A stretch of DNA of 64,000 bases, taken from positions 5,267,501 through 5,331,500 of the forward strand of contig NZ_CP089309.1 of NCBI RefSeq assembly GCF_021228795.1, in the 5' to 3' direction. Position 1 is the first letter of the stretch. The number at the start of each line of letters is the position of its first letter. The notes under the pieces are model-generated. The model was given only the letters and a program-made list of their open reading frames with translations, was not told the origin of the DNA and did not search any database. Made by a program: the position numbers and the translations under genes. The DNA comes from Thiocapsa bogorovii (GTDB taxonomy: Bacteria; Pseudomonadota; Gammaproteobacteria; Chromatiales; Chromatiaceae). Shown here piece after piece: positions 5,128 through 61,139 of the stretch.

Positions 5128-5319
5128 TTAAACCGCGTCCAGAGCGACCTCCGTCATTTTTGCTTTGCGTTCGGTTTGGGAGAAATCCTCGATCTCGGTG
5201 AGGCGCGGTTTGAATTTTAATCTTTTTAATCATTTAAACCGCGCAGGCTCCAGCAGTGGCCAAGTCTGCCGGCTTGATTCCATCCACAAACATCGCATAC
5301 CGCGCCGGGCGCGGTTTAA
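5128..5319 (+). repeat. composite intergenic repeat 1 (A1-linker-B1)
   Basis: Two units in tandem: A (5128-5211) begins TTAAACCGCGTCCAGAG and ends GGCGCGGTTT; an AT-rich linker (5212-5233); then B (5234-5319), TTAAACCGCG to CGCGGTTTAA. It lies between convergent genes (hom and the heptad-repeat protein). Its right end supplies the TAA stop of the minus-strand gene at 5316-5318. Confidence 0.9.
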
Positions 5320-5768
5320 GGCCACAGGCGAATGGCTGCGACCACCAACGCGCCGACGCTGATCGTCAGGCCGAGAGACCAGAACATGAAGCGGTCGAGC
5401 CGCCGGGTCAGCTCTTCGAAGCGCTTGTCCATGGATTCGAAGCGTTTGTCCATGGATTCGAAGCGTTTGTCCATGGATTCGAAGCGTTTGTCCATGGATT
5501 CGAAGTGCTTGTCGACGGCGTTGAAGCGCTGATCCATGTTCAGCTGCATTTGCTCGAAGCGCCTATCAACGGCATCGAAGCGCTTGTCCATTTGCACCAG
5601 AATGGTCTGGATCAACTCGCGTTGGTGCCTGAGCTCCTCCTCTACGCGCACCATGCGCTCGCGCAGCTCGATCTCGTAGACAGCCGGGGGCTTGGCGAAC
5701 GACTGCTCGGCGAGCCATTCGCCCAGATGGGCCTTGATGAATTCGATATCTTCCCGTGCCAGGGCCAT
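5316..5768 (-). CDS. coiled-coil membrane-anchored protein with MDKRFES heptad repeats
   Basis: 150 residues. The N-terminal part (MALAREDIEFIKAHLGEWL) is followed by a charged amphipathic helix, then repeated seven-residue units MDKRFES (about residues 83-117), and a C-terminal membrane helix near FMFWSLGLTISVGALVVAAIRLW. Seven-residue units match one coiled-coil heptad each, so a parallel oligomer anchored by its C-terminus is likely. Similar small proteins are common in purple sulfur bacteria and usually annotated as hypothetical or DUF1640-like. The function is not known. Its stop codon lies in the end of a repeat element. Confidence 0.7.
   Translation of the reverse strand: MALAREDIEFIKAHLGEWLAEQSFAKPPAVYEIELRERMVRVEEELRHQRELIQTILVQMDKRFDAVDRRFEQMQLNMDQRFNAVDKHFESMDKRFESMDKRFESMDKRFESMDKRFEELTRRLDRFMFWSLGLTISVGALVVAAIRLWP
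5416..5520 (-). repeat. 21-bp tandem repeat inside the heptad-repeat gene
   Basis: Five 21-bp units at 5416, 5437, 5458, 5479 and 5500. The second to fourth are identical, the first differs by one base and the fifth is degenerate. Each encodes one heptad, so copy-number changes stay in frame. Confidence 0.92.
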
Positions 5769-5810
5769 CTGCCCCTCCCGTCGCGCTCCGTCCGAATATT
5801 TGCTCTAGTC

Positions 5811-5893
5811 TAAACCGCGTCCAGAGCGAGATGCCATTTTTCGAGTGAGCGCGACATTTGGTGCATCCACAATCCTTAGCGGGGACGCGGTTT
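5811..5893 (+). repeat. single intergenic repeat unit, type A2
   Basis: An 83-bp unit from TAAACCGCGTCCAGAGCGAG to GGGGACGCGGTTT. It aligns over its full length with units at 15186 and 58623 and with the reverse complements of the A halves at about 9110 and 16433. It lies upstream of the heptad-repeat gene and downstream of the spermidine-synthase-like gene. Confidence 0.88.
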
Positions 5894-5977
5894 GAACCAC
5901 CTTGCTCGCGGTGTCGGCTCAATACCGAACCGACCGGGATCGCGAACCTCCGCTCGACCTCGCCGCGGTATTCATGT

Positions 5978-8993: not shown

Positions 8994-9187
8994 TTAAACC
9001 GCGCCCGGCGCGGTATGCGATGTTTTTGGATGGGAACGGCCTCGGCAGACTTGACGGCCGCCGGAGTCGGCGCGGTTTAAGGTATTAAAAAATATATTTT
9101 TTTAAACCGCGTCCCTACTAAGAACCGTGGATGCACCAAACGTCGAACTGACTCGAAAGTCAGCATTTCGCTCTGGACGCGGTTTAA
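8994..9187 (-). repeat. composite intergenic repeat 2 (A2-linker-B1, reverse)
   Basis: B unit 8994-9080, AT-rich linker around 9081-9100 (TATTAAAAAATATATT), A2 unit to 9187. It fills the gap between the GldFG-like gene (stop at 9195) and the DUF4340 gene (start 8986). The A half contains a perfect 6-bp stem with a TTCG loop, read on the minus strand. Confidence 0.9.
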
Positions 9188-9194: not shown

Positions 9195-12134
9195 TCAAGC
9201 ACGCGGATGAGCGCCCAGAATCGCCTCGTCGGCCCGCTCGCGCCGCGCCCTCGCGCGTCGGTACAGCCAATACACCAAGGCAAGGCCGGCGAGGGCGAGG
9301 ACATAGTTCAGGGTCTCCCAGAAGATGCGACCCTCGCGACCCACCGGCTCGAGCAGCCGGTTGAACTGGCCGCGCCCGCGCAGGGTGAGCAGGCCTCGAT
9401 CCTCCAGCGACCAGTCGACGGCGTTCTGCATCAGCTCCAGCGGTTTGAGGTAGCGGCTCTGCGTGGCCTCGGTCGCCAAACTGATCGCGGTGTCCGAGAG
9501 GAAGGTCGAGGAGCCCATCAGGATCAGTCGAGCAGAGGCGGGCGAGGTCTCCACGACACCGGAGATGACCGGAGTCTTGTCTGCGACCGGTTCGCCCGTT
9601 TCAGGGTCGATTGCCTGCGCGTCGGCATCCTCAGGCGCTGCCTCTTCGGACGGGGTGTTTTCTTCGGGCGAGTCATCCAGGAGAGGCGAGGGACGCCCCG
9701 CGAAGGCCGAGCCGAAGCGTCCCTCGACCGCGACGGCGAGCACTCGGCTGCCACGATCCTCGCCGCGCGGGAAACCGAGGCCGCCGTGCGTCTCGAAGTC
9801 AGGTTGCATGTTCTCCGAGTCGCTGGTCCAGGAGCCGGACGAGCTCTTGATCAACTCGATCACACGCCGATCGGCATTCTTCTCGGTATCGACCTGAATC
9901 GGCGAGGACCAGTTCATGGTGATCTGGCCGAGGCTCGAGGTGATTCCCGAGTCCTGCGCGAGTCCGTCGCTGCGGACATCCGGGAAGTAGGGATAGTCGA
10001 GTGTTTGGATCTCCTCGACCGTGAATCCGCCCAGATCGCGCTGCACCGGGATCGGGAAGGGCGTGTTCTTGGGGTCGAGCACCAGGCTCGGCTCGAGGGT
10101 CAGGCCTTGATGACCGAGCCAGTCTTCCAGCCCCGTCGGGGCAGCCCGCGCCGCGATGGAACCGCCGGTCAGGTCCAGGGCGAAGCTGGACGCGGCCAGG
10201 ATGACGGTCCCGCCCTGCATCAGGAATTGGTCGATGGCGAATTGCTGTCGCTCATCCAGGGCCTCGGGTCCCACCACCATCAATAGATCCGTCTCTTCGG
10301 GGACCTGACCGGATGCGAGATCGGTCTCGCGCAGGTTGAATCCGGTGCGCAGGGTCTCCTGCAATAGGCCGTAACCGGATCCGGCGGCCGGTTCGCCGAA
10401 CATCCCGGGGGTCGACGGCGGCGTGTAGAGCGCAATCGTGCGCAAGACGCCCGGCGCGAACCGCTTGATACCGGCCTCGATGGCGCGCTCCAGACTCGCG
10501 CGATCGAGCGCTTCCGGGAGCGGAACCGGAATGGCCTGCTCGCCGGATTCGAGCACCATGTAGAAATAGAAGGGCGTGGGATCGAGCAGGCTCACCACGA
10601 GCGGCTCGAATCCGAACTGCTCCGCAATCGTTTGGGCCAGCGCGCCGTCGCCGGCCGCAGGATCCTGGATCTCGAAGCTGAAACGCGCTCCGCCCTTCGC
10701 GGCGAGATCGGACAAGATCGACTCCAGGTCGGCCCGCAGCTCGGGCAAGGGCTCGGGCAGACGATCGGCCGGGGAGACGAAGCCACGGAACCGCACCGGC
10801 TCGCTCAGATTGGCGAAGAGATCGCCGGCGCCCTGATAGCCGTAGAGCACCTTGCGGATGACGCGTGTGAGATCGTACTCGGGATTGCGCAGGCGCACGT
10901 CCAGATCGGTTTCGCCTTGGACCTTTACGTCGATGAGGTCTTGAAAGCCGAGCGTCTCGAACTGATCGCCGTACTTGATCAGGATGTCGAAGTAGGAATT
11001 GACCACGGAGGCCTGGTATTTGGTCGCGGTCTGGAAGGCAACCGGGCGGATCCCGTACTGCTCGCCGGCCTCGCGCTCGAGCTCGGGCGAGCGTTGAGGA
11101 TCGACGAATTCGACTTGGACTCGGCCGCCGCCCGCGATCTGATACTCACGCAACAGATCGCGAATCTGGGGAACCAACGGGGCCAGCAAAGGGTGGGTGT
11201 CCGCGCTGAAATAGCCGCGGATCAGGAGCGGTTCTCGGAGTTGGCTCAGATAGGTCCGGGTCGCTTCCGAGATCGAGTAGACCCGACCCTCGGTAAGATC
11301 CACTCGGGCACTGCCGATCGCGCCGAGCCAGAGGTTCGCGGCCAAGATGTTGGCGACCGCGAGCCCGGTCACCAGGGTCCAGCGTCGATGATGCCGTCGG
11401 TTTGCGTCCGCTTCGGCCCAGCGCAGCCGCTCCAGGCTGTAGAGCGTCAGAGCGAGGAAGGCGCCGACGATGCTCAGATAGTAGTAAAGATCGCGCAGAT
11501 CGATCACGCCGCGCGTAATGGACTCGAAGCGCGAGCCGCTGCCGATCAGTCGGAGCAGCTCGCCCCCGTCATGCCCGACTAGATTGGTCAGCGCCGGCGT
11601 GCCGATCAGGTAGAGGAGGGCGCCAACCAGGGTGGTTCCGATCAGGGCGACGATCGGGTTGTCGGTGCGCGAGGAGACGAACAGACCAATCGCCAGGTAG
11701 GCCGAGGCCAGCAGCAGGGTGGCCAGATAGGCGCCGACCACCGGGCCCCAGTCCATCGGCCCTAGGAAAGAAACGGTCAGCGGGATCGGCACCGTCAGAA
11801 CCAAGGCAATCGCGACCAGGGCCAGACCCGCGAGGAACTTGCCGAGGACCAGATGCAGGGTGGGCACCGGTAGGGTCATGAGTGTTTCGAGCGTCCCGGC
11901 GCGTCGCTCCTCGCTCCAGAGCCGCATGGTCAGGGCCGCGCAGAGAAAGATCAGCAGCACCGGCATCCAGTCGAACAGAGGGCGGGCATCGGCGATGTTG
12001 CGCGCGAAGAAGGCGTCGACCCAGAAGAAGACGAAGAGCGAGACCGCCAGGAAGGCGCCGATGAAGAGATAGGCGACGGGCGAACCGAAGAAGGCACCGA
12101 GCTCGCGGCGTGCGACGCGCAGAATGTCAGGCAT
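9195..12134 (-). CDS. fused ABC-2 permease and Gld-type auxiliary protein (GldF-GldG-like)
   Basis: 979 residues. The first ~245 form an ABC-2 permease (LRVARRELGAFFGSPVAYLFIGAFL, six helices, EERRAGTLETLMTLPV). After a further membrane helix (~254-280), residues ~285-850 are an ABC_transp_aux/GldG-like extracytoplasmic domain (DLTEGRVYSISEATRTYL..., QMNMV-like core, VVGPEALDERQQFAIDQFLMQGGTVIL). A C-terminal helix (ETLNYVLALAGLALVYWLY) returns to the membrane. In Bacteroidota these are two proteins; here they are one polypeptide. An acidic insert near residues 800-840 is low complexity. The start overlaps the ATPase gene by 8 bp, so they are co-translated. The substrate is unknown. Confidence 0.85.
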   Translation of the reverse strand: MPDILRVARRELGAFFGSPVAYLFIGAFLAVSLFVFFWVDAFFARNIADARPLFDWMPVLLIFLCAALTMRLWSEERRAGTLETLMTLPVPTLHLVLGKFLAGLALVAIALVLTVPIPLTVSFLGPMDWGPVVGAYLATLLLASAYLAIGLFVSSRTDNPIVALIGTTLVGALLYLIGTPALTNLVGHDGGELLRLIGSGSRFESITRGVIDLRDLYYYLSIVGAFLALTLYSLERLRWAEADANRRHHRRWTLVTGLAVANILAANLWLGAIGSARVDLTEGRVYSISEATRTYLSQLREPLLIRGYFSADTHPLLAPLVPQIRDLLREYQIAGGGRVQVEFVDPQRSPELEREAGEQYGIRPVAFQTATKYQASVVNSYFDILIKYGDQFETLGFQDLIDVKVQGETDLDVRLRNPEYDLTRVIRKVLYGYQGAGDLFANLSEPVRFRGFVSPADRLPEPLPELRADLESILSDLAAKGGARFSFEIQDPAAGDGALAQTIAEQFGFEPLVVSLLDPTPFYFYMVLESGEQAIPVPLPEALDRASLERAIEAGIKRFAPGVLRTIALYTPPSTPGMFGEPAAGSGYGLLQETLRTGFNLRETDLASGQVPEETDLLMVVGPEALDERQQFAIDQFLMQGGTVILAASSFALDLTGGSIAARAAPTGLEDWLGHQGLTLEPSLVLDPKNTPFPIPVQRDLGGFTVEEIQTLDYPYFPDVRSDGLAQDSGITSSLGQITMNWSSPIQVDTEKNADRRVIELIKSSSGSWTSDSENMQPDFETHGGLGFPRGEDRGSRVLAVAVEGRFGSAFAGRPSPLLDDSPEENTPSEEAAPEDADAQAIDPETGEPVADKTPVISGVVETSPASARLILMGSSTFLSDTAISLATEATQSRYLKPLELMQNAVDWSLEDRGLLTLRGRGQFNRLLEPVGREGRIFWETLNYVLALAGLALVYWLYRRARARRERADEAILGAHPRA

Positions 12135-13065
12135 GAGCCACCTCCATCTGCTCCAGGGTCACGGCTCCGAAGAGGTCTTCGAGGTCACGCCGCTCGGGTG
12201 CGAGCGCGTAGAGGTCCCAGGGTTGTCGGCCGAGTGCCTTCGCGACCAGAGGCGCGAGCGCCTGCGGATCCTCCGCGCTCAGGGCGAAATACTGCAGACC
12301 CGCATCCCCGTCCCACGACTCGACGGCCGTGACCCCCTCGATCTGTGCGAGCACCGGCCGCGCCACATCCGGCGAGCAGTCGAGCGTGACGAGCAGTCGT
12401 TTGGGACGCCCGATAGCATCCAGTGCGCTGTCGAGCGCCAGTTGGCCGCCGCGCATGATGAGCACTCGACTGCACACCGCTTCGACCTCTTGGAGGACAT
12501 GGGTGGAGATGATCAGGGTCGCATCCTTGGCCAGCTCGCGGACCAGGCTGCGCATGTGCTGGATCTGCGAGGGGTCCAGGCCGTTGGTCGGCTCGTCCAG
12601 GATGAGGATGGCGGGCTCGTGCAGGATCGCCTGCGCCACGCCGACGCGTTGACGATAGCCGCGCGACAGTGTGGCGATGATCGCGGTCGCCTTGGGGCCG
12701 AGGTCCGTGCGCTCGATCGCACGCCGGATGGCTGCAGGACGGCGGTCGTCGGGCATTCCGTGCAGTGCTGCCTGGTAGTCCAGGTAATCGATCACCCGCA
12801 TCTCGGGGTAGAGCGGACAGTTCTCGGGCAAATACCCGATGCGTCGTTGCGCCGCGCGCCGCTGCTCTGCGATATCCATCCCGTCGATCCGGATCGAGCC
12901 GCTGCTCGGCTCCAGATAGCCGGTCATCATCTTCATGATGGTTGTCTTGCCGGCCCCGTTGTGGCCGAGCAGACCGACGATCTCGCCGCGGCCGATGTCG
13001 AACGACACCTGTTGAACCGCCTTGAGCTCGCCGTAGCTGCGACTCAGCTCGCGAACCTCGATCAT
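12127..13065 (-). CDS. ABC transporter ATP-binding protein (GldA-like)
   Basis: 312 residues from ATG 13065, which has AGGAG upstream; the open frame runs on to 13248 through a repeat element and is not used. It has Walker A GHNGAGKTT, Q-loop YLPENCPLYPEM, signature LSRGYRQRV, Walker B ILILDEPTNGLDP and H-loop IISTHVLQEVE. A C-terminal accessory region resembles those of ABC-2 exporters. It is the first gene of the set ATPase, fused permease/auxiliary protein, DUF4340 protein and should energise that transporter at the inner membrane. Confidence 0.9.
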   Translation of the reverse strand: MIEVRELSRSYGELKAVQQVSFDIGRGEIVGLLGHNGAGKTTIMKMMTGYLEPSSGSIRIDGMDIAEQRRAAQRRIGYLPENCPLYPEMRVIDYLDYQAALHGMPDDRRPAAIRRAIERTDLGPKATAIIATLSRGYRQRVGVAQAILHEPAILILDEPTNGLDPSQIQHMRSLVRELAKDATLIISTHVLQEVEAVCSRVLIMRGGQLALDSALDAIGRPKRLLVTLDCSPDVARPVLAQIEGVTAVESWDGDAGLQYFALSAEDPQALAPLVAKALGRQPWDLYALAPERRDLEDLFGAVTLEQMEVAHA

Positions 13066-13431
13066 GATGTCTCCTGCTGAACCGCGTCCCAGGCACTCTA
13101 CGTCGGAATCGTCCGGGATCGGGCCTCGGCGATCCCGGGTCCGTCGGAGCGGACGCGGTTCAGGACTTTTTTGTTGGGAATAGAAACCGCGCCGAGGATC
13201 GAGCGATTCGCAAACGCCGTGTCCTGTTTCGGGACAAACTCGGCTCATCGGATCTTCGCGCGGTCGAGCGTCCGCCGGGTCTCGAACGCCGTTCGGGCGC
13301 GAATTTCACCCGAGGCGGGCTCCGGATGCAAGACCTGTCGAGACCGTTCGTTGTCGTCATCGACGATCGATCCGACAACGACAACGATCTCGAAGGGTCT
13401 CGATACAGTTCCTGTCCTGCGCGATCAGGCG
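13066..13431. other. 366-bp gap with one divergent repeat unit
   Basis: Apart from the repeat unit at 13078-13162, it holds a T6 run at 13166-13172 and a stray AAACCGCGCC at 13184-13193 that looks like a lone element end. An imperfect inverted repeat lies near 13345-13385 (GTTGTCGT with ACGACAAC). No gene is apparent. Confidence 0.5.
13078..13162. repeat. single repeat unit with divergent core (S6)
   Basis: Ends TGAACCGCGTCC and GGACGCGGTTCA are a perfect 12-bp inverted repeat of the family, but here the outer TA is replaced by TG/CA. The core does not resemble A or B; it contains its own inverted repeat CCGGGATCG/CGATCCCGG. Confidence 0.75.
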
Positions 13432-15185: not shown

Positions 15186-15271
15186 TTAAACCGCGTCCAG
15201 AGCGAGATGCTCGTTTTCGAGCGAGCTCGACGTTTGGTGCATCCACAGCCCCATGCAGGGACGCGGTTTAA
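15186..15271 (+). repeat. single intergenic repeat unit, type A2 (between gnd and zwf)
   Basis: 86 bp from TTAAACCGCGTCCAGAG to GGGACGCGGTTTAA. Its right end contains the gnd TAA stop (15268-15270); its left end is 11 bp from the zwf Shine-Dalgarno. The inner stem CTCGTT-TTCG-AGCGAG is complete with one T-G pair. Confidence 0.9.
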
Positions 15272-16284
15272 CTTTTGGGCTTCTCGTGATGACCGCCGAA
15301 CTGGTAGCGCATCGCCGAGAGGATCTGATTGGCGAAATCCGCCTCGCCACGCGAGCTGAAGCGCTCGAAGAGCGCTGTCGTGAGCAGCGGGGCAGGTGTT
15401 CCGGTCTCGATCGCCGCGAGGCAGGTCCAGCGGCCCTCGCCCGAGTCCGAGACCCGACCGCCGAACCCTTCGAGCTGCGGGTCTGCGCGCAGCGCCGTGG
15501 CCGTTAGGTCCAAGAGCCAAGAGGCGACCACGCTGCCCCGACGCCAGACCTCGGCGACCTCGCCGACGTCGATGCGATACTGATAGTGCTCGGGATTGGC
15601 CAGCGGCGCGGTCTCGGCATCCACCGTGTGCTCGTTCAGCCCGACACCGGCGTGCTTGAGGATGTTGAATCCCTCCGCATAGGCGGCCATCAGGGCATAC
15701 TCGATGCCGTTGTGGACCATTTTCACGAAGTGACCGGCACCGCTGGGACCGCAGTGCAGATAGCCTTGCTCGGATCGACTGAAGTCGCCGCTCCGACCCG
15801 CCGTGCGTTCGATCTCCCCCGGGCCGGGCGAAAGGGCGGCGAAGACGGGATCGAGCCGCTCGACCGCCTCGTCCTCCCCGCCGATCATCAGGCAATAGCC
15901 CCGCTCCAGACCCCAGACGCCTCCGCTGGTCCCGCAGTCGACGAAGTGGATCCCCTTCGGTGCGAGGCGCTTCGCGTGGGCGATGTCGTCGCGGTAGTTC
16001 GAGTTGCCGCCGTCGATGATGGTGTCGCCGGCGGCGAGATGCGGGATCAGGTCGTCGATGACTCGGTCCACGACGGCCGCCGGGACCATGATCCAAACAT
16101 TGCGCGGTGCTTCGAGCTTGGCACAGAGATCGGCCATGTCCTGCGCACCGATTGCGCCTTCGGCGACCAGCGCGGCGACCGCGGCGGGATCCCGATCGTA
16201 GACGACACACCGATGTCCGGCGCGCATGAGTCGGAGCACCATGTTGGCGCCCATTCTACCGAGCCCGATCATTGCGAGTTGCAT
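15268..16284 (-). CDS. gnd: 6-phosphogluconate dehydrogenase, decarboxylating (short GndA/YqeC type)
   Basis: 338 residues, near the shorter form of the family rather than the ~470-residue form. N-terminal NAD(P) motif MIGLGRMGANM; substrate-site IDGGNSNYRDD; FVDCGTSGGVWGLERGYCLMIGG; catalytic lysine in GHFVKMVHNGIEY. It converts 6-phosphogluconate to ribulose-5-phosphate and should work with Zwf encoded downstream. The short form often prefers NAD+. The stop codon lies within the adjoining repeat unit. Confidence 0.9.
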   Translation of the reverse strand: MQLAMIGLGRMGANMVLRLMRAGHRCVVYDRDPAAVAALVAEGAIGAQDMADLCAKLEAPRNVWIMVPAAVVDRVIDDLIPHLAAGDTIIDGGNSNYRDDIAHAKRLAPKGIHFVDCGTSGGVWGLERGYCLMIGGEDEAVERLDPVFAALSPGPGEIERTAGRSGDFSRSEQGYLHCGPSGAGHFVKMVHNGIEYALMAAYAEGFNILKHAGVGLNEHTVDAETAPLANPEHYQYRIDVGEVAEVWRRGSVVASWLLDLTATALRADPQLEGFGGRVSDSGEGRWTCLAAIETGTPAPLLTTALFERFSSRGEADFANQILSAMRYQFGGHHEKPKS

Positions 16285-16321: not shown

Positions 16322-16516
16322 TTAAACCGCGCTAGGCGCGGTCTGCGATGTTTTCGGATGGGATCGGCTTCCGGCAGACTCGACGACAGCTGGAGTCGGC
16401 GCGGTTTAAGAGATTAAAAAATATATTATTTTAAACCGCGTCTCTGCTAAGGATCGTTGATGCAGCAAACGTCGCGCTTACTCGAAGGTGAGCATCTCGC
16501 TCTGGACGCGGTTTAA
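16322..16516 (-). repeat. composite intergenic repeat 3 (A2-linker-B1, reverse)
   Basis: B1 unit 16322-16410, linker with ATTAAAAAATATATTA, A2 unit to 16516. It fills most of the gap between glgX (whose TAA stop, 16513-16515, is in the element) and gnd. It is very close to composite 2 in both halves and in the linker. Confidence 0.9.
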
Positions 16517-18655: not shown

Positions 18656-18742
18656 TTAAACCGCGCCGGCTCCAGTGCCCGTCAAGTCTGCCGGGGCCGA
18701 TCCCATCCAAAAACATCGCATATCGCACCGGGCGCGGTTTAA
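18656..18742 (+). repeat. single intergenic repeat unit, type B1
   Basis: 87 bp, TTAAACCGCGCCGGCTCC to GGGCGCGGTTTAA. It aligns with the B halves of composites 1-3, sharing CAAGTCTGCCGG and AACATCGCATA. The right end supplies the TAA stop (18739-18741) of the small coiled-coil gene. A perfect 12-bp palindrome ATCTTTAAAGAT lies just outside at 18632-18643. Confidence 0.88.
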
Positions 18743-19110
18743 CGCCGATCGCTGCCGGGGATCATCTGCTGAATCACACCCATCGGGTTGACCGCCGGAA
18801 TCTGGTCGCCGCCGCCGACGATGCCCGAGAGGCGCTCCATGGCGATGCGCATCCGCCCCATATCGTCGGCGATGGCGGGCAAGGTGGCGACCTGCTCGCG
18901 CATGCCGGAGACGTCTCGAGCGAGCGAGGTCATGTCTTGACGCATCCGGCCCATGTCTGCCGACATGGATGACATCTCGCGCGCCATCAGCGCGACGCTC
19001 GCGGACATGTCATGCATCAGCTTGACCATATATAGAAATGCGACGCCGGCGACGAGCGCTGCGGCAAGGACCGCGAGGGACGGCAGGACAGGACTCGAAT
19101 CGCGCGCCAT
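18739..19110 (-). CDS. small membrane-anchored coiled-coil protein
   Basis: 123 residues from ATG 19110, which has GGAG 7 bases upstream (an upstream ATG at 19146 has no good site). One membrane helix (VLPSLAVLAAALVAGVAFLYMV) is followed by ~75 residues of Met-rich amphipathic helix with repeated MS-DMGRMR-M patterns, then GGDQIPAVNPMG. I do not recognise a family; the Met-rich helix is like that of some small envelope proteins. It could share a transcript with glgX downstream, but a repeat unit lies between. Confidence 0.65.
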   Translation of the reverse strand: MARDSSPVLPSLAVLAAALVAGVAFLYMVKLMHDMSASVALMAREMSSMSADMGRMRQDMTSLARDVSGMREQVATLPAIADDMGRMRIAMERLSGIVGGGDQIPAVNPMGVIQQMIPGSDRR

Positions 19111-19534
19111 GGCATGCTCCGATGAATCACCGAGAGCGACGATCATGACATGTCCGGGGACCCGATTGCACGGTTGGCGAGTGTCCGGTTCAACGGGTCC
19201 CTATCGGATAGAGGGCATCGGACGGATACCCCTGCGAGCTCGCGGCTTCCACGACATCCGCGCCGATCGGCAGCGCCGAGGGTGTATGCTCGCGTGTCGG
19301 TGTCGTGAACGTGAATTGAAAGCCGGACTGTGGGATATTTCAAGAGAGGGTCGGGCACGGTTGTGATCAACCCGAGTCGACCTGATCGATAAGAATCGTC
19401 AAAGGGTCGCATCCGAGCCCTGGATCATGCTCGTTGCGTCTGCCGAAGGCTCCAAGCAGAGCCTCTGACACGATCATCGAAGGGTGCCTGAACAGCACCG
19501 GGGGACCAGCACCGAGGAGTCTTGACGCATCCCT
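19111..19534. other. 424-bp divergent intergenic region
   Basis: Separates the minus-strand coiled-coil gene from the plus-strand DUF2868 gene, so promoters for both should lie here. It has no repeat unit. No convincing small gene or clear -35/-10 pair was recognised. Confidence 0.5.
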
Positions 19535-22042: not shown

Positions 22043-23475
22043 TGTCCGGGAAGATTCCAAGACTAGCGATCATGGGGCACCCGAATGCCGGCAAGTCATC
22101 CGTGGTTGCGACCCTCACCGAGAACGACCTGATTCAGATCGATAAACGCGCGGGTACCACGACCGAATCGAACGTCTACCCGGTCGTCATCGACGGGCGA
22201 CCGGTGATCGAGTTTATCGATACCCCGGGATTTCAGAATCCCAACGCGATCCTGGAATGGTTTCAGGCACAGAGCGGCAAGCGCGAGCTGGCCCGGGCAT
22301 TCGTGGCCGCCCATCGAACAGATCCTCTCTTTACGCATGATTGCGAGCTCCTCGAGCCGGTTGCCGAGGGCGCCGCCATCATTCTGGTGGTCGACGGCTC
22401 CAAGCGCATCAAGGAAAAGGATCGGGTCGAAATCGAGCTGTTGCGCCTGACGGCACGACCGCGCATGGCGATCCTGAACAACCTCACCAACAACACGCGA
22501 TACATGACGCAATGGCGCGATGCGCTCTGCAAGGCGTTCAATTCGGTGCGCGATTTCAACGCCCATCGCGCCACCTACGGCGAGCGCATCCGGTTGCTGC
22601 AGGCGCTCAAGAGCATCGACCAGCGCTGGGAGCCGCTCGTCGAAGAGGCCATCCAAGCCTTCGAGCATGACTGGAACCGGCGCACCGATCAGGCCGTGAC
22701 CACCATCCTGGATCTGCTTAAGGAGGCACTCACCTTCAAGGTGTCCAAGACCGTGAAGGAGAGCAAACTGGTGTTCGAGAGCGGCCGCGAACGCGTCAAG
22801 GAGGAGGTGATCAGGGCGTTTGAAGACGGGCTGCGCCAGCTCGAGACCAAGGCCCAGGAGCAAATCCGCGCGAATTTTCGCCACCACGTCTGGCACATGC
22901 CCCCGGATTCCATCCTCGGGAAGGATTTGCTCTCGGAGGACGTAAATCAGGCGCTCGGCCTCTCCAAACGCCAGCTTGCACTCGTCGGCATGGCTGCGGG
23001 TGCGGCCTCGGGCGCGACCATCGACCTCTCGACGGCTGGGCATACCTTCGGAGCCGGCGCGCTGATCGGTGCGGCAACGGGCGGCGTCCTGGGGTTCGTG
23101 GGAAGCAAGGCACTGGCCAAGCTGAACATCGAGCGTGCGTCGGGGACACAGCGTTTCACGGTCGGACCGGTTCAAAATCCGCGCTTCCCCTTCGTCCTTC
23201 TGGATCGCATCGTGCTCTACAGCGCGCGTGCCATGAACTGGTCACACGGTCGTCAGGCCGCGGAAGAAGACGCGGCGGACAAGGTCCCCGAGAAGGAGAT
23301 CCGTCGGACCGGGTTCACGGAGGAGCTGCCCGCCGCGCAGCAGCGCGATCTGGCGCGGTTCTTCAACGCCGCGAAAAAGGGCAAATCCGAGCGCGAGGAG
23401 GAATGTCGCGCCATTATCAGAGATATCCTGTACGGACTGGCGGTGAGCGAGATCGACAGTCGTGCGGATCTTTAA
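22042..23475 (+). CDS. DUF3482 GTPase
   Basis: 477 residues. TRAFAC-type GTPase: G1 GHPNAGKSS (9-17), G2 region RAGTTTESN, G3 DTPGFQNP. The usual G4 NKxD is not evident; the matching place reads ILNNLTNNTRYM. The C-terminal half is the DUF3482 region with a glycine-zipper-like stretch (GMAAGAASGATIDLSTAGHTFGAGALIGAATGG broken here into two parts, ~311-345) that may insert into membrane. DUF3482 proteins are regularly encoded with DUF2868 proteins, as here, and the function of the pair is not established. Its TAA stop is the first triplet of a repeat element. Confidence 0.82.
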   Translation: MSGKIPRLAIMGHPNAGKSSVVATLTENDLIQIDKRAGTTTESNVYPVVIDGRPVIEFIDTPGFQNPNAILEWFQAQSGKRELARAFVAAHRTDPLFTHDCELLEPVAEGAAIILVVDGSKRIKEKDRVEIELLRLTARPRMAILNNLTNNTRYMTQWRDALCKAFNSVRDFNAHRATYGERIRLLQALKSIDQRWEPLVEEAIQAFEHDWNRRTDQAVTTILDLLKEALTFKVSKTVKESKLVFESGRERVKEEVIRAFEDGLRQLETKAQEQIRANFRHHVWHMPPDSILGKDLLSEDVNQALGLSKRQLALVGMAAGAASGATIDLSTAGHTFGAGALIGAATGGVLGFVGSKALAKLNIERASGTQRFTVGPVQNPRFPFVLLDRIVLYSARAMNWSHGRQAAEEDAADKVPEKEIRRTGFTEELPAAQQRDLARFFNAAKKGKSEREEECRAIIRDILYGLAVSEIDSRADL

Positions 23476-23782
23476 AACCGCGCCCGGTGCGATCCGCATC
23501 GTTTGTTGGGCTGGCTTGGCCGCGTCAGCTCCGACAACTGTTTTGAGCTGGCGCGGTTTAAAGTATTAAAAAATTAAATTCTAAGTAACCGTTTAATAAC
23601 AACTGATCCATCTTAGCCCATCTCCCCTCGCGGGAGAGGAGGGGTTGGGGAGAGGGGGAGAAAGAACCGGAATGGCTAAGTTGTTTCTGAACCGTTTCTA
23701 AACCGCGTCACGACAAAGGTCGGAAAGATCCTTGAGGCCGATACAACATGAGAATAACGCAGGTCGCTCCGCACACGGTTTA
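23472..23782 (-). repeat. composite intergenic repeat 4 (A1-linker-B2, reverse) split by an insertion
   Basis: B2 unit 23472-23562, linker (TATTAAAAAATTAAATT), then about 117 bp of other sequence, then A1 unit 23699-23782. It begins at the TAA stop of the GTPase gene and ends two bases before the bioA ATG. Confidence 0.85.
23581..23698. repeat. nested MITE-like insertion in composite 4
   Basis: Sits exactly where other composites have a 20-bp linker. Its ends form an imperfect inverted repeat (AGTAACCGTTTAATAACAAC against the reverse complement of AAGTTGTTTCTGAACCGTTT). Both sides read TTCTAA/TTCTAA-like, as a short duplicated target would. The middle holds the common CCCCTCGCGGGAGAGGAGGG motif of many bacterial repeats. 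Confidence 0.55.
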
Positions 23783-23784
23783 GG

Positions 23785-25083
23785 ATGAGAGAGGACCAGC
23801 TGATCGGGATCGACCGGGCTCACGCCTGGCATCCCTACACTTCCACCATCGATCGCGATCCGGTCTATGCGGTGCGCTCGGCTTCGGGTTGCCGGATCCG
23901 GCTTATGGACGGCCGCGAGTTGATCGACGGCATGTCCTCCTGGTGGTGTGCGATCCACGGCTACAACCATCCGGTTCTGAATCAGGCCGCGCGCGATCAG
24001 CTCGACGCCATGTCGCACATGATGTTCGGCGGGCTGACCCACGAGCCGGCGGTGCGCCTGATCGACACGCTGGTGACGCTGACCCCTGAGCCGCTGCAGC
24101 ACGTCTTTCTTTGCGACTCGGGATCGGTCTCGGTGGAGGTCGCCATCAAGATGGCCATCCAATACCAGCAGGCCGCCGGACGACCCGAGCGGCACCGGCT
24201 CATGACGATCCGTTCGGGGTATCACGGAGATACCCAAGGGGCCATGTCGGTCTGCGATCCCGTGACCGGGATGCACCATCTCTTCAATCGCGTGTTGCCC
24301 GAACAGGTCTTTGCTCCGGCGCCCGCGTGCCGCTTCGGCGAGCCCTGTCGGCCCGAGCAGATCGCCGAGTTTGCGGACTTGATCGAACGGCATCACGCGG
24401 AGTTGGCCGCGGTGATTCTTGAGCCGATCGTGCAGGGTGCCGGGGGCATGCGCTTCTATGGCGCAGATTATCTCAGGGAGGTTCGCCGGCTCTGCGATCG
24501 CTTCGAGGTGCTCCTGATCGCCGACGAGATCGCGACCGGTTTCGGGCGAACCGGTGCACTCTTCGCCTGCGAGCATGCCGGAATCGCCCCCGATATCATG
24601 ACCCTCGGCAAGGCCCTCACGGGCGGCTATTTGACGCTGGCGGCGACGCTCGCGACCGATCGGGTCGCCCATACCATCTCTTCGGGCAACCCCGGCGTCT
24701 TCATGCACGGCCCGACCTTCATGGGCAACCCGCTCGCCTGCGCGATCGCCAACGCGAGCATCCATCTCCTGCTTGCGTCGGACTGGCGAGCGAACATCGC
24801 TCGAATCGAGCGTGGTCTAGCTGCCGGGCTGGCGGGCTGCCGGGACCTTGCGGGTGTAGCCGAGGTGCGCGTGCTCGCTGCGATCGGTGTGGTCGAGATG
24901 TCTGCGCCCGTCTCAATGCGCGACATCCAGCAGCGCTTCGTCGCGCGCGGGGTCTGGGTGCGCCCTTTCGGCCGACTCGTTTATCTGATGCCGCCCTACA
25001 TCATCGACGATGCGGAGCTTGCGACGCTCTGCACCTCGGTTGTGTCCGTCCTCGGCGAGATGGCTGCGGAATCATCCGAATAA
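23785..25083 (+). CDS. bioA: adenosylmethionine-8-amino-7-oxononanoate aminotransferase
   Basis: 432 residues. A PLP enzyme that makes 7,8-diaminopelargonate in biotin synthesis. Highly conserved segments are HPYTS, VDGMSSWW-like [61 protein letters not shown], the PLP lysine in [23 protein letters not shown] and [21 protein letters not shown] 23785 comes 2 bases after a repeat element, so only the element end (TTTAGG) is available as a ribosome site. No other bio gene is near. Confidence 0.95.
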
Positions 25084-27815: not shown

Positions 27816-28364
27816 TTGACCAAGAACGAAAATAACTTGATCTGGCTCGATCTCGAGATGACGGGGCTCGACCCTGCGACCGATCGTATCCTCGAGATCG
27901 CGACCATGATCACCGACAGCGATCTTCGCATCCTGGCCGAGGGTCCCGTCGTTGCGATCTATCAGCCGGAGACCGTTCTTGCGGGCATGGACGATTGGAA
28001 TCGCGACCATCACGGCCGCTCCGGCCTGCTCGATCGGGTGCGCGCAAGCACGCAGGCCGTATCGGACGCCGAATCGACGACTCTGCGCTTCCTCGCGGAT
28101 CTCGTCCCGCCCGGCGCTTCGCCCCTGTGCGGAAACAGTATCTGTCAGGATCGACGCTTCCTCGCGCTCTGGATGCCGAAGCTCGAGGCCTACTGTCACT
28201 ATCGCAATCTGGACGTGAGCACGCTGAAGATCCTCGCGCAACGCTGGGCACCCTCCGTGGCAAGCGCGTTCAAAAAAGAGTCGCGACACCTGGCCATGGA
28301 CGACATCCGCGAGTCCATCGACGAACTCAAACATTATCGCATGCATCTTTTGCGCCAGCTTTAA
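27816..28364 (+). CDS. orn: oligoribonuclease
   Basis: 182 residues from TTG 27816, chosen because AGGAG is 9 bases upstream and the product then matches Orn length; the open frame reaches back to 27744. DEDDh 3'-5' exonuclease that degrades 2-5-mer RNAs and pGpG. Active-site segments: [31 protein letters not shown] and [11 protein letters not shown]. The TAA stop is the first triplet of a repeat composite, shared convergently with queG. Confidence 0.93.
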
Positions 28365-28555
28365 ACCGCGCCCGGTGTTGTATGCGTGACGTGTTGAAAT
28401 GGTTCGGCCGCGTCAGCTCCGGTGACTGTCGGAGCTGGCGCGGTTTAAAGGATTCGAAGATGTTGAATGCTAAACCGCGTCTCACCAGGATCGAGGATAT
28501 CTCCGAAGCCATACGCACAATGAAAACGACGCATGTCGCTCTGGACCCGATTCAA
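28361..28555 (-). repeat. composite intergenic repeat 5 (A1-linker-B2, reverse)
   Basis: B2 unit 28361-28448, linker (GATTCGAAGATGTTGAATG) and A1 unit 28471-28555, between convergent orn and queG. It contains the TAA stop of orn at its left end and overlaps the TGA stop of queG at its decayed right end (GATTCAA). The B half has a stem CAGCTCCG/CGGAGCTG. Confidence 0.88.
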
Positions 28556-57280: not shown

Positions 57281-57652
57281 ATGGCGACACCGGGCGCGTC
57301 CACCGGGTCCCTCGCGGGACAGCAACGTATCCTCAGTTTCGCGATCAAGGACAAGGCTGCGCTCTACGCCGCATTCATGCCCTTTGTCAGAAACGGGGGG
57401 CTCTTCATCCCGACGACGAAGCGCTACCAGCTCGGCGACGAGATCTTTCTTCTGCTGCAGTTGATGGAGGAGACCGAGCGTATCCCGGTTGCCGGTAAGG
57501 TGGTTTGGGTGACGCCGCCGGGTGCCGAGGGCAGTCGTGCGATCGGTGTCGGCGTGCAGTTCAGCGACCAGGACAAAGGGATGGCCCGCCGCAAGATCGA
57601 GGACTATCTCGTCGGCGCCCTCAACTCGGATCGTCCGACACACACCATGTAA
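57281..57652 (+). CDS. pilZ: PilZ domain protein
   Basis: 123 residues. PilZ-type: LYAAFMPFVRNGGLFIPT, LGDEIFLLLQLMEE, VAGKVVWVTPPG, RAIGVGVQF. The usual RxxxR motif of c-di-GMP binders is not evident, as in true PilZ of type IV pili, which is encoded at this place between holB and tatD in Pseudomonas. The TAA stop is the first triplet of a repeat composite. Confidence 0.9.
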   Translation: MATPGASTGSLAGQQRILSFAIKDKAALYAAFMPFVRNGGLFIPTTKRYQLGDEIFLLLQLMEETERIPVAGKVVWVTPPGAEGSRAIGVGVQFSDQDKGMARRKIEDYLVGALNSDRPTHTM

Positions 57653-57842
57653 ACCGCGTCCAGAGCAATATGCTTCATTTTCACTGTGCGTATGGCTTTG
57701 GAGACATCCTCGATCGCGGTGAGACGCAGTTTAAAATTTAATCTTTTTCAATAATTTACACTGCGCCAACTCCGACAGTCGTCGGAGCTGGCGCGGCCAA
57801 GCCATTCCAACAAATTACGCATACCGCACCGGGCGCGGTTTA
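57650..57842 (+). repeat. composite intergenic repeat 6 (A1-linker-B2)
   Basis: A1 unit 57650-57734, linker (AATTTAATCTTTTTCAATAA), B2 unit to 57842. It begins at the pilZ TAA and ends at the AGGAG of tatD. The B half has a 10-bp stem with one mismatch around an AGTC loop (CAACTCCGAC / GTCGGAGCTG). Confidence 0.9.
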
Positions 57843-57851
57843 GGAGAGCGG

Positions 57852-58625
57852 ATGCTCGTCGATTCCCATTGTCACCTCGATCGTGTCGATCTTCGCCGAT
57901 ACGATGGCAACTTCAACGCGCTCGTGCAGGCGACCGCAGATGCCGGTGTCACGCACATGCTCTGCGTCTCGATCGACCTGGAGCATTATCCGGACATGCG
58001 ACGCCTCGTCGATCCCTTCGAGCAGATCGCTGTTTCGGTCGGCGTGCATCCGAATCAGGAGCACGGAGAGGAGCCGACCGCGGAGACCCTGGTGTCTCTG
58101 GCGGCGGATCCGCGGAACGTCGCGATCGGCGAGACCGGATTGGACTATTTCCATCGCGATCTGGATCCGGCCCTTCAGCGCGAACGTTTCCGCGTCCACA
58201 TTGCAGCGGCACGCGCATGTGGCAAGCCGCTGATTATCCACACGCGCGATGCGCGCAAGGATACGATCTCGATCCTCCGCGAGGAGGGCGCCGACGCTGT
58301 CGGCGGCGTGCTGCACTGCTTCACAGAGAATTGGGAGATGGCGAAGGCCGGGATGGACCTGGGTTTCTATGTCTCCTTTTCCGGGATCGTCACCTTTAAG
58401 AATGCCGAGGAGCTGCGCGACGTCGCGCGTCGCGTTCCGCTCGATCGCCTTCTCATCGAGACGGATTCGCCCTACCTTGCGCCGATGCCGCATCGCGGCA
58501 AACCCAACGAGCCCAAGATGGTCGCCCATGTCGCGAGCCGAATCGCCGAGCTTCGCGGGATGGATCCGGCAGAGATTGCCTCGATCACGCGGGAGAATTA
58601 CTTCCGTCTGTTCGCCATCGCCTAA
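57852..58625 (+). CDS. TatD family metal-dependent hydrolase
   Basis: 257 residues, AGGAG 5 bases upstream next to the repeat. Metal site DSHCHLDR at the start, AIGETGLDYF, IHTRDA, LHCFTEN, and LIETDSPYLAP. A YcfH-type deoxyribonuclease-like enzyme, found in the same place in relatives. Its TAA stop begins the next repeat unit. Confidence 0.92.
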   Translation: MLVDSHCHLDRVDLRRYDGNFNALVQATADAGVTHMLCVSIDLEHYPDMRRLVDPFEQIAVSVGVHPNQEHGEEPTAETLVSLAADPRNVAIGETGLDYFHRDLDPALQRERFRVHIAAARACGKPLIIHTRDARKDTISILREEGADAVGGVLHCFTENWEMAKAGMDLGFYVSFSGIVTFKNAEELRDVARRVPLDRLLIETDSPYLAPMPHRGKPNEPKMVAHVASRIAELRGMDPAEIASITRENYFRLFAIA

Positions 58626-58706
58626 ACCGCGTCCGGAGCGAGATGCCCGTTTTCGAGTGAGCTCGACGTTCTTTGTATCCACAACCCTTCGCGGGGACGC
58701 GGTTTA
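58623..58706 (+). repeat. single intergenic repeat unit, type A2
   Basis: 84 bp from TAAACCGCGTCCGGAGCG to GGGGACGCGGTTTA, between convergent tatD (whose stop it holds) and pap (whose stop is 4 bp away). Confidence 0.9.
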
Positions 58707-58709
58707 GGA

Positions 58710-60287
58710 TCATGACTCCGACTTGCCGTTCGATCCCTTCTTCCCCTCCTCGGGACGCTTTTCACCGCACGGCAGGTAACCGGCCGTGGGCTCGGGGTCG
58801 CGCTTGAGCGCTTCGCGCACGGTGTCGCAGACGGTCTTGAGCACCTTCACGCGCGCGTAGGGTTTGTCGTTGCCTTCCACCAGGGTCCAAGCCGCATGCT
58901 TGGTGCTGGTGCGCACCACCATCTCGTTGATCGCATCCTTGTATTGCGGCCATTTCTCGCGGTTGCGCCAGTCGTCGTCGGTTATCTTGTATTGCTTGTA
59001 CGGGACAGCTTCGCGGTCCTTGAAGCGCTTGAGCTGCTCGTCTTGGCTGATGTGGATCCAGAATTTGAGTAGGATGACGCCGCTGTCCACGAGCTGCTCT
59101 TCGAAGCGATTGATCTCCGAGTAGGCGCGACGCCATTCGGCATCGCCGGCGAAGCCCTCGACCCGCTCGACCAGAACGCGTCCGTACCAGGATCTGTCAT
59201 AGAGGGTGATATAGCCCGCCCGCGGGACGTGACGCCAGAAGCGCCACAGATAGTGGTGCGATTTCTCCTCGTCGGTGGGCGCGGCGACCGGGATCGTGCG
59301 ATAGAGACGCGCGTCGACTGCGGTCGTGATCCTGCGGATCGCGCCGCCTTTACCGCCCGCATCGACACCCTCGAAGACCAGAACAGTCGATCGCTTCTTG
59401 TTGTAGGCGCTCCAAGCCAGCTCGTTGATCTCGGTCTGCAGGCGCTTCATCTCCGCCTTGTAGGTGTCCTTGTCCAAGGCGAGCGAGAGATCCAGTTGAT
59501 CCAGGAGCGTGATCTGGGCATTCGCACCGCTCGGGAGCTCCGGACTCCCGCTGCTGGCCTTGACGCTATCCGAGGGGGTCTCTCCCAACCGCGAGCGGAT
59601 GGCGTGCAGAAGGGTTTTGCCGACAGTCAAGTCCCGGTAACGCCTGTCTTCGGCCTCCACCAGATACCAGGGGCAGACGCCTCGGTCGGTGTGGCGGATG
59701 ACACGCTCGGCGACCTGCTCGAATGCGGCGTACTGCTCGGAGAATTTGCTCTTGTCCGGGAGCATCTTCCAGCGACTCTTGTCGTCGCGCGAGAGCTCTT
59801 TCAGGCGCGATTTCTGTTCCTCTTCGGACATGTGGAACCAGAACTTCAGAATGAGTGCGCCGTCTTGGATCAGCATGCGCTCGAAATCGACGATGCGGTT
59901 AAGCTCCCCGTCGAGCTCCGCATCGCTGCAATGACCCTGGAAGCGATGCTCGATCGGGGTCTGATACCAGCCGCCGAAGAGGATCGAGATCTCGCCGCGG
60001 GGCGGCATCGAACGCCAGAAGCGCCAGTAGCGCGGACGCGCGCGTTCCTCGTCGGTCTCGTCCCAGAAGGCGAAGGTTTGAACACCGCGGGTATCCAGCC
60101 ATTCGTTCAGCCGGTTCACCACCTCGCCCTTTCCTGCCGCCTCGACGCCCGAGATGAGAACAACGACCGGGATATCGGAGTCTTTCAGGTCGCGTTGGGC
60201 CGAAAGAAGCTCGGTGCGCAGCTGTTCCTGCTGCTCTTTGAAGTCGTCCTTGCTGACCGAGCGGCCAACTTTTGTCGATTCGAACAT
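58710..60287 (-). CDS. pap: polyphosphate:AMP phosphotransferase
   Basis: 525 residues from ATG 60287, with GAGG 9 bases upstream. Two tandem PPK2 domains, the layout of PPK2 class II: P-loops ISGVEAAGKGEVVNRL (~46-61) and FEGVDAGGKGGAIRRI (~310-325), with WRFWRSMPPRGEI and WRFWRHVPRAGYI as matching lid regions, and GHCSDAELDGEL / ERVEGFAGDAEW. Phosphorylates AMP to ADP using polyphosphate. The C-terminus is Lys-rich. Confidence 0.93.
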   Translation of the reverse strand: MFESTKVGRSVSKDDFKEQQEQLRTELLSAQRDLKDSDIPVVVLISGVEAAGKGEVVNRLNEWLDTRGVQTFAFWDETDEERARPRYWRFWRSMPPRGEISILFGGWYQTPIEHRFQGHCSDAELDGELNRIVDFERMLIQDGALILKFWFHMSEEEQKSRLKELSRDDKSRWKMLPDKSKFSEQYAAFEQVAERVIRHTDRGVCPWYLVEAEDRRYRDLTVGKTLLHAIRSRLGETPSDSVKASSGSPELPSGANAQITLLDQLDLSLALDKDTYKAEMKRLQTEINELAWSAYNKKRSTVLVFEGVDAGGKGGAIRRITTAVDARLYRTIPVAAPTDEEKSHHYLWRFWRHVPRAGYITLYDRSWYGRVLVERVEGFAGDAEWRRAYSEINRFEEQLVDSGVILLKFWIHISQDEQLKRFKDREAVPYKQYKITDDDWRNREKWPQYKDAINEMVVRTSTKHAAWTLVEGNDKPYARVKVLKTVCDTVREALKRDPEPTAGYLPCGEKRPEEGKKGSNGKSES

Positions 60288-60523
60288 GCGTCTTATCCTC
60301 AATGATGCGGGATCCGCTTCCGCGTCCCGGGCACGCAAAGCGGGAAACGGTAGACTTCGGGGGTATGTTCTTCGCAAGGGACGGATCGAGCAAGCGCTCT
60401 AACGCGATTGATTTTCCGAAGATCGGCTGGTCCGGCGGCATCGGCGTATGCCATGCGGTCGTTCGGATGGTAAAGTCCCGGCTGATCCCGGCAACGGATG
60501 GAGCGATCGGTGCGAGCCTTTCC

Positions 60524-60991
60524 ATGATCGACTGGACCTTTACCCCTGCCTCCCTCTGGACCCTGATCGGTGTCGTGCTGATCCTGTCCGAGCTTGCGCT
60601 GCCCGGCGTCATTGCCGTCTTCTTCGGCATCGCCGCGCTGTTGGTCGGATTGCTGCTGTTCCTCGATGTCCCGATCGACCCGCCCGCACAGATCCTGCTT
60701 TTCGGTGTACTCGGCGCCGCGCTTCTGTTGTTCGCGCGCCATCGCCTCAAGCCCTGGTTTCGGGGTCAGGTGGAAACCGGCGGGAGCGGCAGTGAGGTGT
60801 TGCCGGAAGGCACCCCGGCACGGGCACAGACCGATTTTGTGCGCGGAGCGGGTGTCGTGTCCCTCAACGGCGTTCGGTGGAACGCCGAGTCCGCAGATCC
60901 CATTCATGCGGGCGACCCGGTCTGGCTCACCGGCCGGCGAGGCCTTGTCCTGCACGTCAGCGCAACGCCTCCGAACGTCACCGATTCCTGA
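60524..60991 (+). CDS. NfeD-like membrane protein
   Basis: 155 residues from ATG 60524 (no strong Shine-Dalgarno; the frame is open to 60272, overlapping pap antisense). Three or four membrane helices (LWTLIGVVLILSELALPGVIAVFFGIAALL; ILLFGVLGAALLLFARH) then an OB-fold domain (GVVSLNGVRWNAES-DPIHAGDPVWLTGRRGLVLHV). Typical short NfeD, a partner of SPFH/stomatin proteins, one of which follows 165 bp downstream. Confidence 0.85.
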   Translation: MIDWTFTPASLWTLIGVVLILSELALPGVIAVFFGIAALLVGLLLFLDVPIDPPAQILLFGVLGAALLLFARHRLKPWFRGQVETGGSGSEVLPEGTPARAQTDFVRGAGVVSLNGVRWNAESADPIHAGDPVWLTGRRGLVLHVSATPPNVTDS

Positions 60992-61057
60992 GGTGAGCCT
61001 TGCGGCATGCGGGTCAGGAGCATCGGTGCGGACGCATCGCCTTTTTGCTTTCTCGTC

Positions 61058-61139
61058 TAAACCGCACCGACCGACGGTGCGTGATGTTCCCAAGCGAGAT
61101 CCCTTATACAACATTGTTTTTGAAAGTGAACGCGGTTTA
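61058..61139. repeat. single repeat unit with divergent core (S5)
   Basis: 82 bp with family ends (TAAACCGCACC and AACGCGGTTTA) between the NfeD gene and the SPFH gene. The core does not align clearly with A or B units. The right end abuts GAGGAG of the next gene. Confidence 0.7.

Follow-up and report, generated by a model that had tools for sequence, protein, structure and literature searches.

Probable IS630/Tc1-type miniature elements built of two stem-loop halves dock on stop codons in Thiocapsa

The stretch analysed here, called the window, comprises 64,000 nucleotides of Thiocapsa bogorovii (contig NZ_CP089309.1, positions 5,267,501 to 5,331,500), whose intergenic gaps carry a family of short repeat units with complementary 12-bp end arms, very probably miniature inverted-repeat transposable elements (MITEs). 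Genes were delimited by a simple codon-usage caller made for this analysis and not by a published annotation. All 18 units at 12 loci that a first-pass annotation had described are present, and the 10-mer TTAAACCGCG is found 31 times in the window when one mismatch is allowed, whereas 100 shuffles predict 2.26 and never exceed 6. The units are as short as had been described, but their range is 84–91 bp, mostly 86–88 bp, and not 82–91 bp. The 13078 unit has the ends CTGAACCGCG/CGCGGTTCAG and not TTAAACC, and several others end in CTAA. The right arm of the 28470 unit is degenerate, with 3 of 12 arm pairs at the end used. Classes A1, A2, B1 and B2 recur in the larger sample described below, and the two supposed outliers belong to a large old set in which the loops are unrelated and the paired arms are conserved. 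As had been noted, no transposase gene lies inside the units or the composites of approximately 195 bp that they form (Table 1).

Table 1. Units, halves and linkers of the repeat family in the window (strand +, head on the left)
Feature	Position	Strand	Remark
A2 half of composite 5128-5319	5128..5213	+	arms 10/12 paired; class 22
AT-rich linker of composite 5128-5319	5214..5233	+	20 bp, tail-tail junction
B1 half of composite 5128-5319	5234..5319	-	its TAA is the stop of minus gene 5316-5768
A1 single	5810..5895	+	TA empty in G002 (GTTTAAACC)
B1 half of composite 8994-9187	8994..9080	+	arms 12/12 paired
A1 half of composite 8994-9187	9102..9187	-	linker 9081-9101
Old TGAACC-type unit	13077..13163	+	head toward start of minus gene 12127-13065
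A1 unit	15186..15271	+	tail arm holds stop of minus gene 15268-16284
B1 half of composite 16322-16516	16322..16409	+	
A1 half of composite 16322-16516	16431..16516	-	head arm holds stop of minus gene 16513-18591
B1 unit	18656..18742	-	head arm holds stop of minus gene 18739-19146
B2 unit	23472..23562	+	left end holds stop of plus gene 22072-23475
A3 unit	23698..23783	-	head one base upstream of start of plus gene 23785-25083
B2 half	28361..28448	+	head arm holds stop of plus gene 27744-28364
Decayed A2-like partner half of 28361	28470..28555	-	right arm degenerate
A2 half of composite 57649-57843	57649..57734	+	head arm holds stop of plus gene 57281-57652
B2 half of composite 57649-57843	57756..57843	-	linker 57735-57755
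A1 unit	58622..58707	+	head arm holds stop of plus gene 57852-58625
Old unit	61057..61140	-	head 15 bp upstream of start of plus gene 61156-62109

The anatomy of the elements was examined in 864 kb of the source genome and in syntenic stretches of nine congeners, compared genomes being labeled G001, G002, G004 and so on. This sample yielded 207 units of 78–96 bp; the length histogram, which spans 40–200 bp, has 167 at 86–88 bp, 10 at 85 bp, 6 at 84 bp and 4 at 89 bp, with 1–2 in each other occupied bin. The stretches of G005, G006 and G009 (67 kb) contained no units. Orientation by the head motif (consensus cTAAACCGCGtCCgGnGCGatATGCg) was applied to 201 units of 83–90 bp, of which 129 fall into the classes B1 (48), A1 (32), B2 (20), A2 (12), A3 (10) and one of 7 members, and 72 form small clusters or stand alone. 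Adjacent pairs lie tail to tail in 54 of 55 cases, separated by a linker of 15–26 bp that measures 20–21 bp in 42 of the 55. Both halves belong to main classes in 41 of the 55 pairs, and all 41 combine an A with a B half; 13 pairs unite two other units, and one unites a B half with another unit. The tail-to-tail orientation and the A+B pairing therefore show that the usual mobile element is a heterodimer of about 195 bp, in which an A half and a B half are joined by an AT-rich linker of about 21 bp with their heads outward. Across species, 145 elements were analysed: 90 single, 54 paired and one triple. At locus L051 of G004 (18863-19137), three consecutive units occur, the second and third of which have a common arm.

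The family extends well beyond the window. The source genome (5.65 Mb, single contig) contains 99 exact TTAAACCGCG-N40..70-CGCGGTTTAA pairs (reversed control, 0) and 272 pairs with degenerate arms, YTRAACCGCG...CGCGGTTYAR (control, 0). The family is therefore not confined to the few copies of the window, a confinement that the first-pass annotation had regarded as speaking against mobile elements. A search of related genomes, which it had recommended, recovered copies in several Chromatiaceae genera: at least one YTRAACCGCG-type pair occurs in 22 of 156 Chromatiaceae genomes, the source included, and in 10 of 61 genera, with only 1–3 pairs in some genomes and none in the control. In a set of 56 genomes including the source, TTAA-type pairs number 58–283 in 7 of 10 congeners and are absent from 3 of 10, while 1 of 45 genomes outside the genus has them (17 pairs). 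The head pattern, among the matches listed, is also found in Lamprocystis, Thiobaca, Thiocystis, Thiorhodococcus and Chromatiaceae metagenome-assembled genomes, and two-unit composites were seen in Thiobaca, Thiocystis, Lamprocystis and two such assemblies among 27 of the listed loci.

A comparison of filled with empty orthologous gaps, also recommended at the first pass, shows that the elements inserted into TA and duplicated it. The outer flanks of all 145 elements were sought in the other species, giving 80 element-by-species comparisons; in 15 of these, at six distinct sites, the flanks overlap by exactly TA. Four of the sites lie in the window. The composite 57649-57843 has its empty counterpart in G004 and G008 (CCATGTAGGAGAG) and in G005 (CCCTCTAGGAGAC). 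The 28361 site, resolved through the G004 and G002 copies, holds a composite in G002 and is an empty TTAA in G001/G008; the 18656 site, resolved through the G002 copy, holds A1-linker-B1 there and is empty at CTAG in G008; and the fourth is 5810. The remaining two are a CTAG lying 8 bp from 5810, where G004 and G007 carry an A3-linker-B1 composite at this other TA, and a CTAAACGAGG site that is occupied in G001, G002 and G004. A composite is present in at least one species at five of the six sites, and only a single unit was seen at 5810. Within the genus, the same-site check found the sites to be polymorphic and empty in some species.

The mini-element moved by an IS630/Tc1-type transposase that had been proposed at the first pass is backed both by these TA-duplicating empty sites and by an IS630-family insertion sequence (IS) with matching TA-flanked ends. 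This intact IS was found in other genomes and not in the source genome. PF13358 gives 48 matches in 9 of 11 Thiocapsa genomes, and of 30 loci scanned one, in G006, has head-like element ends; other IS630 groups of Thiocapsa genomes have ends unrelated to the heads. The G006 transposase (317 aa) scores 155 bits against NF033545 (IS630) and 76 bits against PF13358. Used as a query, it matches in 45 of 146 family genomes, at full length with 71–88% identity in G166, G079 and G135 (three times) and as broken pieces elsewhere. The four IS copies examined (G006, G166, G079 and G135) measure 1274–1277 bp and are TA-flanked, with 30-bp ends such as AACCCCGTCCAGAGCGGGATGCGTAATTTT. A heads agree with the IS 5' ends at 23–26 of 30 bases and with the 3' ends at 20–22, whereas TA-anchored control 30-mers outside units (700 kb) reached at least 19 in only 3 of 21,251 cases (20, 21 and 27). 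In Thiorhodococcus mannitoliphagus, an IS end fits the head pattern exactly and is followed by MLELDLVKW, the start of a like transposase. Sequence comparison thus makes it very likely that the units are MITEs which an IS630/Tc1-type transposase mobilises or once mobilised, and that their usual form is an A-linker-B composite at TA. Such a transposase would bind the two heads and move the composite by cut-and-paste, as in Tc1/mariner. In G001 (contig C1 near 4500450, L280:1293-1510), a B2-A2 composite has inserted at a TA within a decayed IS630 end, so that the likely parent itself was struck.

Several observations weigh against this reading. At three sites with a 2-bp overlap (#99, #109/#122/#131 and #113), the empty sequence of today contains no TA, and many of the 80 comparisons cannot be read cleanly. 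B heads resemble the two IS ends to a similar degree (20–24 of 30); the notion that A derives from the IS 5' end and B from the 3' end therefore holds for its A part alone. No intact partner IS was found in the source genome, where the best match has 26% identity, and the unit-rich genomes G000, G001, G002, G004 and G008 have no transposase match above 40% identity. Conversely, genomes with the intact IS are poor in units (G166, 0; G079, 0; G135, 2; G006, 0 under the stricter TTAA pattern), so that mobilisation was not seen within one cell. The inner (tail) arms are not present in the IS ends, the best fits having 3–6 mismatches of 12; a simple internal deletion of the IS therefore does not explain them, and the two-hairpin build seems to have arisen within the MITE itself. 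Halves at one site can differ in class between species, as at 58622, which is occupied by a B1 unit in G004; the same TA is therefore also hit more than once, or copies exchange sequence. Lastly, G002 is empty at the TA of the 5810 single, and none of the species seen has a composite at this TA; single units may therefore move as well. The term MITE, as understood here, does not demand an intact autonomous partner in the same genome; since no intact IS was found in the source genome, the copies there may now be immobile.

The 5810 site also favors an alternative in which each unit of about 87 bp is itself mobile, as a simple MITE, and pairs arise from neighboring insertions. Every unit has matched ends, and 90 of the 145 elements are single. 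However, pairs are fixed in orientation, spacing and A+B composition, and the singles at 15186, 16322 (in G004 and G002), 18656 and 28361 correspond to composites in another species. At 15186, G004 has A1-linker-B1, G010, G001 and G008 have a B unit, and G002 and G007 have another class; at 16322, only the B unit is kept in G004 and G002, and neither half is found in G001 and G010. The composite 8994-9187 has orthologous composites in G004, G002, G007 and G010, and a B unit only in G001. One half and the linker were lost precisely at 15186, at 16322 in G004 and G002, and at 18656, suggesting that many single units are composites without one half. The 5810 unit was considered as a remnant of the G004/G007 composite and dropped, a different TA being used. 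Decay of one half is suggested in many other singles: the 21 bp beyond a single's tail have a GC content of 0.43, against 0.64 further out and 0.18 in pair linkers, and arm-like remains there (at most 3 mismatches) exceed the control for both the inner arm (12 versus 3) and the outer arm (15 versus 8). The 13077 unit has a decayed partner half at about 13181-13270. Among own-genome singles, the head points toward the nearest gene boundary in 51 of 57, and of 25 singles docked on a stop codon, 23 are docked by the head and not the tail. In view of these orientations and the AT-rich DNA beyond the tail, independent mobility of every unit appears quite improbable. Preferential survival of the gene-proximal half, which the 51 of 57 might suggest, was rejected: both outer ends of a composite are heads, and docking rates are similar for the heads of singles (23/57) and of pairs (20/62), so half loss seems independent of docking. 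In the composite reading, one half would often be lost after insertion, through exact removal between like-oriented arms or through decay, and the remaining half would persist with its 12-bp arms still paired.

Repetitive extragenic palindromes (REP) and bacterial interspersed mosaic elements (BIME) are likewise paired palindromic intergenic units, with an enzyme that differs from the IS630 type. Spread by a REP-associated (RAYT, Y1) transposase would accord with units that are short, intergenic, palindromic and paired, and with 14 Y1_Tnp matches in the source genome. However, of 10 of these loci examined, only one has a unit, about 1.3 kb away, so the expected adjacency is missing at the 10 loci; moreover, the TA duplicated on insertion is a Tc1-type mark. 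The BIME-like nature entertained at the first pass finds no support in these loci, and we give this origin almost no credence.

The position of the elements relative to genes is the second conspicuous property of the family. The first-pass annotation, whose reading as elements stands, had not noted that unit ends supply stop codons. When gene 3' ends are plotted against units, a single peak appears, at which the stop codon coincides with unit bases 2–4 (T-TAA-ACC). These bases form the stop in 74 of 118 inbound gene ends located from 57 bases before to 86 bases inside a unit, all species taken together and orthologs counted repeatedly. Of 88 elements in the source genome, 43 are docked with an end that coincides exactly with a stop codon, two of them at both ends, and none lies inside an open reading frame. 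The docked stops are TAA (34), TGA (10) and TAG (1). Elements occupy convergent gaps in 24 of 88 cases and divergent gaps in 8 of 88, against 102 and 107 of 746 background gaps. The first element base after TA is A, and insertion into TAA or TAG therefore restores TAA. In a GC-rich genome, stop codons would supply part of the harmless TA sites, and insertion combined with selection against damage would leave about half of the elements on stop codons. That docking reflects nothing beyond the scarcity of harmless TA sites is a serious candidate explanation, though one we incline slightly against: insertion requires TA with outer bases that are mostly YTAR, and stop-codon TAs account for 9% of all harmless TAs and for 19% when only YTAR sites are counted, yet the docked share of 49% is 2.5 times the 19% expected (p = 4e-10). 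Insertions at gene ends may be tolerated best, and a mix of causes is likely. The outer ends of the own-genome composites 369335-369530 and 810038-810235 carry the stops of two convergent genes; a TA common to overlapping convergent stops would explain such double docking. In addition, 13 own-genome singles have their head at most 30 bp from a start codon, two being joined directly to ATG.

The arms pair over exactly positions 1–12. In 42 old singles, paired arms observed/expected amount to 9/8.6 at position 0, 38/23.3 at position 1, 40/21.4 at position 3, 32/32.0 at position 12 and 9/12.0 at position 13. Covariation is evident as T-A/C-G at position 1, A-T/G-C at position 3 (TAA or TGA) and T-A/C-G at position 11 (mostly A versus B). 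Position 1 is paired in 54 of 81 main-class composite halves, 22 of 27 other halves and 77 of 90 singles. The 63 own-genome units that belong to no main class have 709 of their 756 arm positions paired, compared with a mean of 622 and a maximum of 641 in 2000 permutations, and 27 of the 63 have fully paired arms against 4.5 expected, counts that are favored because units were found through their arms (at least 9/12 paired). Congener orthologs were found by flanks alone and termed vertical at a loop identity of at least 0.6 with more than 80% aligned, although a few such rows may be replacements (e.g., 810038 versus G004); rows scored as replaced or other (arms 0.81–0.82, loops 0.55–0.63) and 24 empty sites were kept apart. 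Vertical orthologs of old classes show identities of 0.923 in arms, 0.732 in loops and 0.864 in flanks, and those of main classes 0.953, 0.789 and 0.839, respectively. For the 13077 unit, arm identity to six congeners is 23–24 of 24, with loop identities of 0.63–0.95. In-place divergence is 3–5 times less in arms than in loops, or about half after ascertainment correction: the selection of own copies by their arms could alone halve the expected arm divergence from 0.268 to 0.134, and the 0.077 observed in old classes is still below that value. Among 85 orthologous unit pairs (loop identity at least 0.62), 59 agree in length and 21 have a one-base difference; orthologous linkers show differences of up to tens of bases (composites 805764 and 826283). 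Arm changes in these pairs, which are mutually non-independent, comprise 81 single, 9 double paired and 2 double unpaired changes. An in-place double change occurs at 805877, where the source has CTAAAAC...GGTTTAG and G008 has CTGAACC...GGTTCAG.

These features would fit a host function, namely that surviving halves, with paired 12-bp arms and a loop of about 62 bases, are kept by selection at gene ends in hundreds per Thiocapsa genome. The kept half would be YTRAACCGCGYC...GRCGCGGTTYAR with TAA or TGA as a built-in stop, its sequence and pairing outlasting loop similarity. We put forward both statements tentatively, as possible and somewhat doubtful. The main rival holds that the covariation is mutational: template switching would correct one inverted arm from the other, and neither selection nor function would be involved. 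Such correction is known to act on inverted repeats, and the arms covary in the manner of base pairs and show no G.U preference of the RNA type. However, pairing ends sharply at positions 1 and 12, and correction homogenises arms but would not keep the ancestral sequence, which the arms of old classes retain better than their loops; a purely mutational origin is thus rather unlikely. A hairpin RNA is disfavored by sense-strand arm mismatches, which show no preference for G.U over A.C (5 to 9 when every docked own-genome unit is counted; 5 to 2 for old classes), and selection at the RNA level is accordingly not claimed. An intrinsic terminator was set aside, the loop having about 62 bases and the T run only three. 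Integron attC sites, whose boxes are RYYYAAC/GTTRRRY, came into consideration through the overlap of unit ends with stop codons and were dropped: the units are dispersed among syntenic ordinary genes, and their arms do not fit these boxes.

Two further features were observed in the gaps. Complementary C-rich and G-rich blocks lie at 23605-23660 between units 23472 and 23698 and are not present in the orthologous gaps shown for seven congeners. A second intergenic motif, GTTGTCGTTGTCG / CGACAACGACAAC, is matched 8 times, at 6 places, within the 864 kb sampled from the source genome, including 13373 of the window, all outside gene calls, and occurs in the congeners' gaps at the 23475 and 13066 sites; it may represent another short palindromic repeat family.

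The family shares features with several described systems. The 107-bp RUP of Streptococcus pneumoniae, whose ends resemble those of IS630-Spn1, is likewise short, non-coding and mostly intergenic with IS630-like ends; in the excerpted text of PMC3049150 it is called simple, a description that sets it apart from a heterodimer of stem-loop halves whose inner arms are not in the IS. The same text states that 58 genes overlap pneumococcal BOX and that BOX encodes a stop at the extreme 3' end in 36 of them (PMC3049150). Stop codons from a mobile, modular repeat are therefore already known, with BOX as the precedent. BOX ends are said to resemble ISSpn2, and the boxA/boxB/boxC modules vary in number; a fixed A+B pair or covarying 12-bp arms are not part of its description there (PMC3049150). 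ISY100, of the IS630 family, inserts in vitro almost only into TA with duplication and supplies the mechanism assumed for the present MITE; in contrast, it is an autonomous IS, and the text retrieved from PMC2170065 describes no MITE docking. MITEPsy1 of Pseudomonas syringae (100 bp) targets CTAG or YTAA, as the present MITE does, but according to the available part of PMC3189936 it is a single element with a 4-bp duplication and a proposed ISPsy2 (IS5-family) parent. The terms "stop codon" and "IS630" were not found in the retrieved text of a review of prokaryotic MITEs (PMC10969869).

No description of this family had been known at the first pass, and none appeared among the records listed in open-access searches on Chromatiaceae or Thiocapsa MITEs or repeats, or on MITEs, IS630 and stop codons. 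The exact 10-mer TTAAACCGCG occurs there in 9 papers, all judged by title to concern other subjects. Rfam 15 covariance models gave no match in the window at the gathering threshold and none in 5000-28700 at E ≤ 1. As far as searched, this mobile IS630/Tc1-type MITE family is therefore undescribed; its build as a heterodimer of two stem-loops is unusual, it docks strongly on stop codons, and its paired arms are long-lived. The family is documented here with its likely enzyme, its target rule and a geometric reason for its harmless seat on stop codons. If the proposed host function is true, a structured gene-end signal, be it a terminator, an mRNA-end protector or a paired protein site, would have been bred in bulk from a transposon. 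Fresh composites at one end and ancient single hairpins at the other form a natural series among related species, and this series, through the contrast of arms with loops, makes it testable when a bacterial mini-transposon turns into a host gene-end signal.

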